A stretch of 64,000 nt of DNA from positions 1-64,000 of the forward strand of contig NZ_JACHFH010000004.1 of NCBI RefSeq assembly GCF_014201835.1, given 5' to 3'. A program made the position numbers and the translations under genes. Within the stretch, counting starts at the first letter, position 1, and the number at the start of each line of letters is the position of its first letter. The notes under the pieces were generated by a model, which saw nothing but the letters and a program-made list of their open reading frames with translations, was not told the DNA's origin and searched no databases. Shown here one piece after another: positions 57,618-64,000 of the stretch. The DNA is from Pectinatus brassicae (lineage in GTDB: Bacteria; Bacillota; Negativicutes; Selenomonadales; Selenomonadaceae).

Positions 57618-58708
57618 TTGAAAGCTGTTATTTTCAATTCTACACAAGGCATAATAAAAAAAGAAATTCCCTTACCAGCAATGAAAAATAACGAATTATT
57701 ATTAAAAGTGCAAACCTGTGGCATTTGCAGCAGTGATATAAAAACACTTACGCATGCCCGAGAAGCTATCCAATCGCCAATTATATTAGGACATGAATTT
57801 ACTGGTGAAATTGTTGATATAAGTACTGATAATGATAATTTTACGATAGGTCAACGGGTAGTTGTGTCACCGACTATTGGCTGTGGTCAATGTTATTTTT
57901 GTAAAACAGGAAATCAGCATCACTGTATTCATAAAAAAAATTTGCTAGTGATTATAATGGTGGTTTTGCTGAATATGTTAAAATTCCTTCTGCAGCAATC
58001 ACTAACGGGAACATTAATCTTATTCCAGAATCTCTCGATTATCTAAGTGCCACTTTAACAGAACCTTTAGCTTGTGTATTAAATGGCCAGGAAAACTTAC
58101 AAATTAACCCTATGACTTCCGTGGCTGTAATCGGTGCCGGACCAATAGGTTTATTACATGCAGAAACTGCTAAATTATATGGTGCTAATAAAATAATTTT
58201 AATAAATAAAAGTCCGTCACGATTACTGTTGGCAAAAAAATTTAATTATGATGCCTATGTTGATTTATCCAGTTCTTCTACAGATGAATTATTAAACAAT
58301 CATTACTACCAAAATATCGGAGTTATTATTGTTACTGTTGCTTCTCAAGCTGCCATATAATTAGCATTGCAGCTAGCAGCACCATTAGGTAAAATTTGTT
58401 TATTCAGCGGCATGCCTAAAAACAGCGCACAAATTTCATTAGATTTAAACCTTATTCATTACAAACAGCTCTCATTATACGGTACATCATCTTCTTCACC
58501 ATATCATAATCAAACCGCCCTAAATCTGCTAGCCAATAATAAAATAAATGCTCATAAAATTATAAGCCATATTGGTACTTTAGATAAATTTGAAGAATGT
58601 TTTAATTTTGCCCAAACGCATAAAGGTTTAAAAATCATTACGACACCTACCATTGAGGATTTACAGGACAATTTAAAAACTTTTCCTGAACTACATATTA
58701 TAAACTAA
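57618..58708 (+). pseudogene. zinc-dependent sugar-alcohol dehydrogenase, doubly broken
   Basis: The three fragments together give one medium-chain dehydrogenase (sorbitol/threonine dehydrogenase-like). First: CGICSSDIKTL and GHEFTGEIV (catalytic zinc) and CGQCYFCKTGNQHHC (structural zinc). A one-base loss in an A-run (57933-57940; nine As would restore the frame) then shifts it. The middle has GFAEYVKIP, VAVIGAGPIGLLHAE (NAD). An in-frame TAA (58358-58360) interrupts after ASQAAI, then LALQLAAPLGKICLFSG continues to the natural stop. Two independent lesions make a simple sequencing error unlikely for the whole gene. It lies between mmsA and the AraC gene, so it was probably part of the catabolic unit. 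Confidence 0.9.
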
Positions 58709-62663: not shown

Positions 62664-62825
62664 TATACTTAGCATTTTTTTACTATATCTTTATAAAATT
62701 TAATATATTTTTATATTTTTTTTATATACTTATGAGTTTTTAGTAAATACTTGCAAAATATACTATAAACCCCTAGACAAACACAAATAGATATGCTAAG
62801 ATATGAATCGTAAACATGTTAACAA

Positions 62826-62898
62826 GGCAATGGGGCCATATGATGTTCTGATTTCTACATATTATTATGAGGGATTAGTGTATTCATATGGTTTTTTT
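62826..62898 (+). promoter_or_regulatory. glnA leader: ANTAR-type hexaloop hairpin overlapping a terminator
   Basis: GGC-AATGGG-GCC (62826-62837) is a hairpin with a six-base loop that has A at loop position 1 and G at 4, the hallmark of RNA targets of ANTAR antiterminators. Its 3' side overlaps the left arm CCATATGA (62836-62843) of a terminator whose right arm TCATATGG (62884-62891) is followed by seven T's. The two structures exclude each other, as in EutV-type control. I could not find a convincing first hexaloop hairpin upstream. Confidence 0.6.
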
Positions 62899-62934
62899 AT
62901 TGCTTAATTTCTAAAATATAAAGGTGGTTTTCTT

Positions 62935-64000
62935 ATGGACGATTTACTTCTCGTTATCCCTGCTAATTCTGAAAAAGAAGATATTTTAAGCAAATTAAAA
63001 GAACATCCGGAAATTAAATTTGTTTCATTAGTAGGTATTGATTTAGCTGGTAATGATACAGATGAAAAAATCCCTGTAGAATTATTCTTAGACGATATTG
63101 ATAAATTCTATGAAGGTTCGGCAGTACAAACTGATGGTTCTTCTGTTGTCCTGACTAACATTGCAACTTTGAATAATGCTAAAGTTGATATGCCAGTTGA
63201 CCCTGCTGTTAATTGGTTTGTTGATTATAACTGGGAATATGGCGATGAAGCAACCGGCAAACCTGTTGGTACCCTTCGCATTCCGGCATTTTTAATTCAT
63301 GAAGGCAAACGTGTTGATTCACGTGCTGTTCTTACTGATACTTTATCTTTTGTAAAAGAAAAATTAATGGCATTATTTGCTAAAAATGATACTATCTCTG
63401 GCCTTGAACATATCAAAGGCAGCGATGTTGAAGATGTTTTATTCACCTCTGCTACTGAACTCGAATTTTGGGTAAAAACGCCACTTGCTGAAGCTGATAT
63501 TCCTGAAATGAGCGCATCTCAGGTTATGCAGGAACAATACTGGCAGCGTACCCGCGGCGCAGTTCGTTCTGCACTTGAACAGACAATCATGTTCATGCAG
63601 GAATACGGACTTGAACCAGAAATGGGTCATAAAGAAGTTGGCGGCATGAAAGGTCATATGGACAGTGATGGTCATATGGGACATGTTTGCGAACAAATTG
63701 AAATTGACTGGAAATTTGCTAACGCCGTTCAAGCTGCTGATAACGAATTATTCGTTCGTACTTTAGTAAAAGAAGTTTTCCGTTCTAACGGTCTTGAAGT
63801 GAACTTCAAAGCAAAACCAATGATCGGTCTTGCTGGTAACGGTGAACATACTCATATTGGGATAGCTGCTAAACTAAAAAGCGGTAAAATCATTAACTTG
63901 TTCTCTCCTAAAGAAATGACCAAAGATTTCATGAGTGCAATTGGTTATGGTGCAATCATGGGTCTTTTGAAAAACTATGAAGTAATTAATCCATTCGTTT
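62935..64000 (+). CDS. glnA: glutamine synthetase, 3' end outside the window
   Basis: The frame from ATG 62935 stays open to the window end, giving 355 residues. It contains SATELEFWVKTP (metal-binding Glu region), HVCEQIEIDWKFANAVQAAD, KPMIGLAGNGEHTHIG (family PKP..G..G.G.H.H motif) and LFSPKEMTKDF. It makes glutamine from glutamate, ammonia and ATP. The N-terminal part differs from classical GlnA, so it may be one of the longer or divergent forms found in anaerobes. A likely ANTAR-type leader precedes it; AAGGTGG is the ribosome site. Confidence 0.9.
   Translation, partial: MDDLLLVIPANSEKEDILSKLKEHPEIKFVSLVGIDLAGNDTDEKIPVELFLDDIDKFYEGSAVQTDGSSVVLTNIATLNNAKVDMPVDPAVNWFVDYNWEYGDEATGKPVGTLRIPAFLIHEGKRVDSRAVLTDTLSFVKEKLMALFAKNDTISGLEHIKGSDVEDVLFTSATELEFWVKTPLAEADIPEMSASQVMQEQYWQRTRGAVRSALEQTIMFMQEYGLEPEMGHKEVGGMKGHMDSDGHMGHVCEQIEIDWKFANAVQAADNELFVRTLVKEVFRSNGLEVNFKAKPMIGLAGNGEHTHIGIAAKLKSGKIINLFSPKEMTKDFMSAIGYGAIMGLLKNYEVINPFV

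Follow-up and report, generated by a model that had tools for sequence, protein, structure and literature searches.

The leader of the glutamine synthetase gene glnA in Pectinatus brassicae is, in our reading (to which we give a probability of roughly 0.82), a transcription attenuator opened by the single ANTAR response regulator of the genome, without the first hairpin (P1) of the canonical ANTAR target, and the same regulator would serve about 17 leaders. The finding is larger than the one leader described in an earlier note on this DNA, as the genome has about 17 such attenuators, mostly before nitrogen genes.

The glnA leader

The window (the whole stretch of DNA that was analysed, 64,000 nucleotides) ends within glnA, and the closest named GlnA proteins are those of Pectinatus haikarae and P. 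cerevisiiphilus (88-89%). The gene before glnA encodes, judging by its sequence, a glycerate kinase-like protein, and the AT-rich spacer between the two genes contains the predicted promoter, the hexaloop and the terminator:

62774..62802, + strand: predicted glnA promoter (TAGACA 62774-62779, 17-nt spacer, extended TG, TAAGAT 62797-62802)
about 62808-62810, + strand: predicted +1 of the glnA transcript, placed from the promoter
62809..62825, + strand: transcribed segment from the predicted +1 to the hairpin, ~17 nt, with no A1/G4 hexaloop hairpin (P1)
62826..62837, + strand: putative antiterminator hairpin, a P2-type ANTAR hexaloop, GGC-AATGGG-GCC (from sequence, relatives and folding)
62834..62898, + strand: intrinsic terminator, 5' arm GGCCATATGA, beginning within the hexaloop hairpin and exclusive of the hexaloop
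62848-62878, + strand: internal helix of the terminator
62884-62891, + strand: terminator 3' arm TCATATGG, running on into T7 (62892-62898)
62920..62927, + strand: ribosome-binding site AAAGGTGG, from sequence reading
62935..64000, + strand: glnA, glutamine synthetase, 628 aa, continuing beyond the window end (PF00120, 1.3e-35)

The promoter assignment rests on the recurrence of the same arrangement before glnA in relatives, since a consensus promoter scan of the glnA upstream region alone was not above shuffles. The hairpin consists of GGC (62826-62828), the loop AATGGG (62829-62834, with A at position 1 and G at position 4) and GCC (62835-62837), and its 3' strand doubles as the beginning of the T-tailed terminator, in which CCATATGA (62836-62843) pairs with the 3' arm before the T7 tract. 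The hexaloop thus overlaps a mutually exclusive intrinsic terminator, as P2 does in an ANTAR-target RNA.

The whole glnA leader folds at z = -3.06 against shuffles. When a growing transcript was folded in silico, the hexaloop was the first stable structure (from 62839, -4.2 kcal/mol) and was kept until the terminator 3' arm was nearly complete, the last terminator bases displacing it. The end state is the terminator, at -25.1 kcal/mol compared with -19.6 kcal/mol when the hexaloop is enforced (a gap of 5.5 kcal/mol). The enforced hexaloop takes away the G-C pairs beside the U tract, which is the manner in which an antiterminator would have to work. The 3-bp hexaloop stem alone folds no better than shuffles, so the hexaloop rises above chance because it is conserved. 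The earlier note had proposed both a GGC-AATGGG-GCC hairpin with an A1/G4 hexaloop, whose letters are exact, and its competition with a T-tailed terminator, which the sequence overlap and the growing-transcript folding bear out.

Elsewhere in the window, an alcohol dehydrogenase-like gene (57618-58708) is broken up into three short ORFs (57618-58046, 58112-58360 and 58367-58708) and is either a pseudogene or the result of a sequencing error.

Conserved hexaloops and the ANTAR protein

The comparison covered 124 glnA upstream regions, from 41 genomes of the class (Negativicutes) and 80 named loci. An unbiased search of these regions for hairpins of any loop length or sequence overlapping the terminator 5' arm returned mostly 6-nt loops, nearly all of them RNNGNN. 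A rule-based pick, which demanded R at position 1, G at position 4 and a closing C:G (all three independently supported by the unbiased search), found the hexaloop in 97 regions, representing 83 distinct leaders; two of these (L219 and L252) have no terminator and are probably chance matches, so that about 81 remain. Loop position 1 is A in 72 and G in 11 of the 83 leaders, position 4 is G in all, position 2 is mostly A and position 3 mostly T. The second stem pair is G-C in 74 leaders and T-A in eight; changes at the second and third pairs preserve the pairing, and the closing C:G and a stem of at least three pairs are retained. In the T-A group (other Negativicutes families, with GTC/GAC for GGC/GCC) the terminator 3' arm is generally altered to match. 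In 65 of the 70 leaders that were scored, the terminator arm begins with the first base of the hexaloop 3' strand.

In 19 out of 81 glnA leaders (3.7 in shuffles) the strand just after the T tract can form at least five Watson-Crick pairs with the 5' side of the hexaloop, GGCAATG. Here this strand is TATTGCTT (62898-62905); the pairing covaries in two genomes (G008 and G026), and the strand might lock the hexaloop away in read-through RNA. A YGTAA-like transcript start (here CGTAA, 62809-62813) is common in many Selenomonad-type glnA leaders. A 7-nt loop (GGC-AATGAGA-GCC, L028), which amounts to a natural test of loop size, is found in the glnA leader of one ANTAR-bearing genome, G030, and a SAM riboswitch lies downstream of glnA in G010 (L012 3598-3708).

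The P. brassicae genome encodes one ANTAR protein (G000:C5:18100-18258, PF03861, E 2.4e-19, 70.9 bits against a cut-off of 27.3), a 202-aa REC-ANTAR response regulator whose gene overlaps a GAF_PdtaS/HisKA_2 kinase gene on contig C5. It aligns along its length with Mycobacterium tuberculosis PdtaR (1s8n) and Enterococcus faecalis EutV (6wsh). Among 23 proteins of the class (EutV numbering), the RNA-contacting residues R142, K143, K149, E160, M172 and R175 of EutV and the phospho-acceptor D54 are invariant, Y164 is Y or F and K147 is mostly R; all of them have Q in place of R168, and neither N173 nor R177 is retained.

All 34 class genomes (out of 41) with a glnA hexaloop have an ANTAR protein above the cut-off. 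Among the seven without it, three lack ANTAR (none in G011 and G022, a sub-threshold remnant only in G015), G029, G033 and G038 have ANTAR without the hexaloop, and G030 has ANTAR and the 7-nt loop. In a second set, chosen from named loci and partly overlapping the first, ANTAR is found in 21 out of 21 hexaloop-bearing genomes but only in one out of 17 hexaloop-less genomes. Many of the 16 ANTAR-less genomes look like members of a single Quinella-like group, and draft metagenome bins account for some of them, so the losses are clustered and the counts represent a few events rather than sixteen independent ones.

The earlier note had suggested that the ANTAR gene might lie after glnA, beyond the window. 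In P. brassicae none of the ORFs in the next 10 kb is such a gene, and it sits instead beside the PdtaS-type kinase gene on contig C5; in two relatives (G005 and G021) it does lie on the glnA-bearing contig, on the same strand and just downstream of glnA. The note had also made its proposal, control of glutamine synthetase by an ANTAR antiterminator, depend on the presence of an ANTAR protein in the genome and on conservation of the hexaloop before glnA in relatives. Both are found (E 2.4e-19 for the protein and about 81 distinct leaders), and such control is supported, as judged from sequence, by this protein together with the conserved hexaloop.

A genome-wide search for GCAANGNNGC with a T6 tract 20-50 nt downstream gave 39 matches in P. 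brassicae (overlaps included), whereas the reversed control gave 0 and 1. In 17 places, including glnA (itself from an earlier pattern), an intergenic hexaloop overlaps a terminator; the list comes from pattern searches that miss other stems and is a lower bound. Besides glnA it contains:

C9:35039: ammonium transporter (amtB)
C26:3462: P-II protein (glnB), then an ammonium transporter-like ORF
C11:67728: urea ABC UrtA (urtA)
C40:20347: nitrogenase iron protein nifH
C6:74866: xanthine permease
C21:16841: M20 hydantoinase/carbamoylase-family amidohydrolase
C2:28660 and C9:61817: amino-acid ABC genes
C36:4817: lyase, aspartase/fumarase type
C42:2923: aminotransferase
C11:64108: sensor kinase
C23:1595: Na/sulfate-dicarboxylate symporter family
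C21:4322: ABC permease-like ORF (no Pfam match)
C11:6705, C54:2160 and C54:9577: corrinoid methyl-transfer genes

Several members of this set have orthologues in P. cerevisiiphilus (G003) and a congener (G002) whose leaders keep the hexaloop while the terminators have changed, and two other families have it before nifH-family genes as well (G029, L171; G031). Occurrences of GGCAATG within coding sequence (C2:7969, C2:11026, C33:21914 and others) were set aside as mid-gene and without a terminator, C10:50179, C23:43899 and similar are chance matches in coding sequence, and C3:25777, whose terminator does not overlap the hexaloop, was kept only as a weak match. We do not claim a loss of classical NtrC-type control, as the genome has sigma-54 activators.

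Absence of P1 and alternative readings

A canonical ANTAR target has a P1 hexaloop upstream; none is found at glnA, in agreement with the one-hairpin variant that the earlier note had considered. A search for P1 (A1/G4 hexaloop, at least three pairs, linker 3-14) gave no candidates in the 83 glnA leaders compared with 3.8 expected from shuffles. The transcribed part alone gave four against 3.8 in shuffles, and no hairpin with a G-C pair was seen in the 45 nt upstream of P2. Whether position 1 was restricted to A or opened to A/G, whether or not a G-C pair was demanded, and also in the transcribed part alone, the scans did not rise above shuffles at glnA. From the predicted start to the hexaloop stem there are 20 nt (median of the 83 leaders; 10-90% range 16-25). 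As a positive control, the same kind of scan found P1 in hexaloop-terminators of other classes of the phylum (L265, L266, L268, L270, L286, L287, L312, L313, L316 and L320, some being the same element). A dual-hexaloop pattern gave 41 candidates in a sample of the phylum, seven of them with a terminator overlapping the second hexaloop, and 27 candidates in 200 genomes of the class, none with such an overlap; the pattern sees only P1 stems ending in GC, so this is a contrast between samples and not a census. One P1-less hexaloop-terminator (L311) was seen in another class, in a genome (G208) where dual elements occur as well, which suggests that the single-hexaloop form occurs outside Negativicutes too.

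The leader might still be a two-site target in which a degenerate or unstructured upstream segment (such as an AU hairpin or the GTAA conserved close to the 5' end) acts as P1. We consider this unlikely, though published work on other systems counts against a P1-less reading: EutV induction in vivo is lost without P1 or with an altered linker (5-12 nt in eutP; PMC3369931), a single hexaloop is bound by EutV at any one time and P1 is proposed to be a recruitment hairpin (PMC8934654), and the affinity of NasR for P2 alone is low (about 12 uM; PMC7496416). In P. brassicae itself, four out of 18 elements (before genes for a corrinoid protein, P-II, a RACo-like and an MtaA-like protein) have a weak A1/G4 hairpin of two to four AU/GU pairs beside P2, compared with 0.8 in shuffles at a minimum stem of two, a threshold picked after seeing the four. 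The motif RTAYYGTTAT stands directly before the hexaloop in these leaders (C11:6705, L114; C26:3462, L125; C54:2160, L040; C54:9577, L159), which have longer upstream parts and precede corrinoid methyl-transfer genes in three cases and a P-II gene in one; the hairpins may be relic P1s or the site of another protein. YGTAA also recurs just past the predicted start in glnA leaders. Against a hidden P1, the other 14 own-genome elements have no P1-like hairpin within 14 nt of P2, upstream hairpins at glnA are at chance level as given above, and some glnA leaders (G032, G016 and L197) have only 5-9 nt before P2.

Two further readings dispense with the ANTAR protein. That the hairpin-terminator attenuates without regulation, or responds to a metabolite or to a different RNA-binding protein, seems very improbable: binding of the hexaloop by the ANTAR protein is something we infer, and one ANTAR-less genome (G011) keeps a terminator-like hairpin after its glnA promoter, but the loop rules (A1, G4 and closing C:G) are the ones that ANTAR targets follow, genomes lacking ANTAR also lack the hexaloop, and the gene set is nitrogen-related. 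Nor does a known RNA family cover the glnA hexaloop element; Rfam, with its glnA RNA (the cyanobacterial glutamine riboswitch) and all other families, gave no gathering-level match in the window, and relaxing the E limit to 5 brought no meaningful match on the leaders. It is hardly credible that the hairpin arose by chance beside a terminator that simply serves the glycerate kinase-like gene before it. The shortness of the stem, and its folding alone no better than shuffles, would fit such an origin, but conservation already refutes it, as the roughly 81 leaders keep the element with compensatory changes; the genome-wide matches also far exceed their control.

Proposed mechanism and known ANTAR systems

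On present sequence evidence the ANTAR protein very probably opens the glnA leader switch. RNA polymerase would start about 17 nt before the hexaloop (at the predicted start), and the hexaloop hairpin would fold first; unless held, it would be displaced by the more stable terminator, with a stop at the T tract. The PdtaS-like kinase would phosphorylate the ANTAR protein, which presumably dimerizes and would hold the hexaloop through G4. The held hexaloop would withhold the GCC that the terminator needs beside the U tract, and glnA would be transcribed. No upstream recruitment hairpin would take part, a single hexaloop close to the transcript 5' end being sufficient, and one ANTAR protein would serve the roughly 17 leaders as a nitrogen regulon. 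The direction of control would be activation of nitrogen genes under need, with ammonium or glutamine status as the presumed signal, received via the kinase. The missing P1 may be offset by affinity, by protein abundance or by a hexaloop that lies right at the transcript 5' end.

On balance we lean towards a more general picture, in which Negativicutes have a large nitrogen regulon (from glnA, amtB, glnB and urtA to nifH) run by one ANTAR regulator through single promoter-proximal hexaloops; P1 would then be no general requirement, with nearness to the 5' end or higher affinity substituting for it. ANTAR antitermination through a single hexaloop was not found in the open-licence papers searched, and an earlier report is possible. 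The EutV structure paper states that antitermination needs two hexaloops and that the role of single-hexaloop motifs is still to be determined (PMC8934654). Given some 80 natural attenuators of the single-hexaloop type, together with the proteins that belong to them, this question becomes testable with short synthetic leaders, and published dual-hairpin searches would undercount ANTAR targets. The set is also a candidate nitrogen-control circuit for rumen, gut and beer-spoilage Negativicutes, for which no such circuit was found in the open-licence literature searched.

The eut leaders of E. faecalis, controlled by EutV/EutW, share with the glnA leader the A1/G4 hexaloop, the closing C:G and the overlap of the 3' strand with the terminator 5' arm, and there too a REC-ANTAR protein is paired with a cognate histidine kinase. 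However, eutP needs P1 5-12 nt upstream (PMC3369931), whereas P. brassicae glnA has no P1 and its hexaloop lies ~20 nt from the predicted 5' end, and the P. brassicae regulon, unlike the eut leaders, concerns general nitrogen metabolism. The nasF leader of Klebsiella, bound by NasR, is similar in its hexaloop overlapping a terminator, its ANTAR protein and its nitrogen genes, but needs two hairpins for full affinity (PMC7496416), and NasR senses nitrate through a NIT domain where P. brassicae has a separate kinase. M. tuberculosis PdtaS/PdtaR provides the closest solved structure of the ANTAR protein and the same GAF_PdtaS kinase domain; actinobacterial ANTAR targets, however, are reported to be dual stem loops, for the most part without overlap with a terminator (PMC8164766). 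The predicted ANTAR nitrogen regulons of Desulfotomaculum and Pelobacter (Ramesh et al. 2012, PMC3369931) likewise have many ANTAR leaders per genome before nitrogen genes, including those for glutamate and glutamine synthases, but were found with a dual-hairpin model that would miss single-hexaloop leaders.
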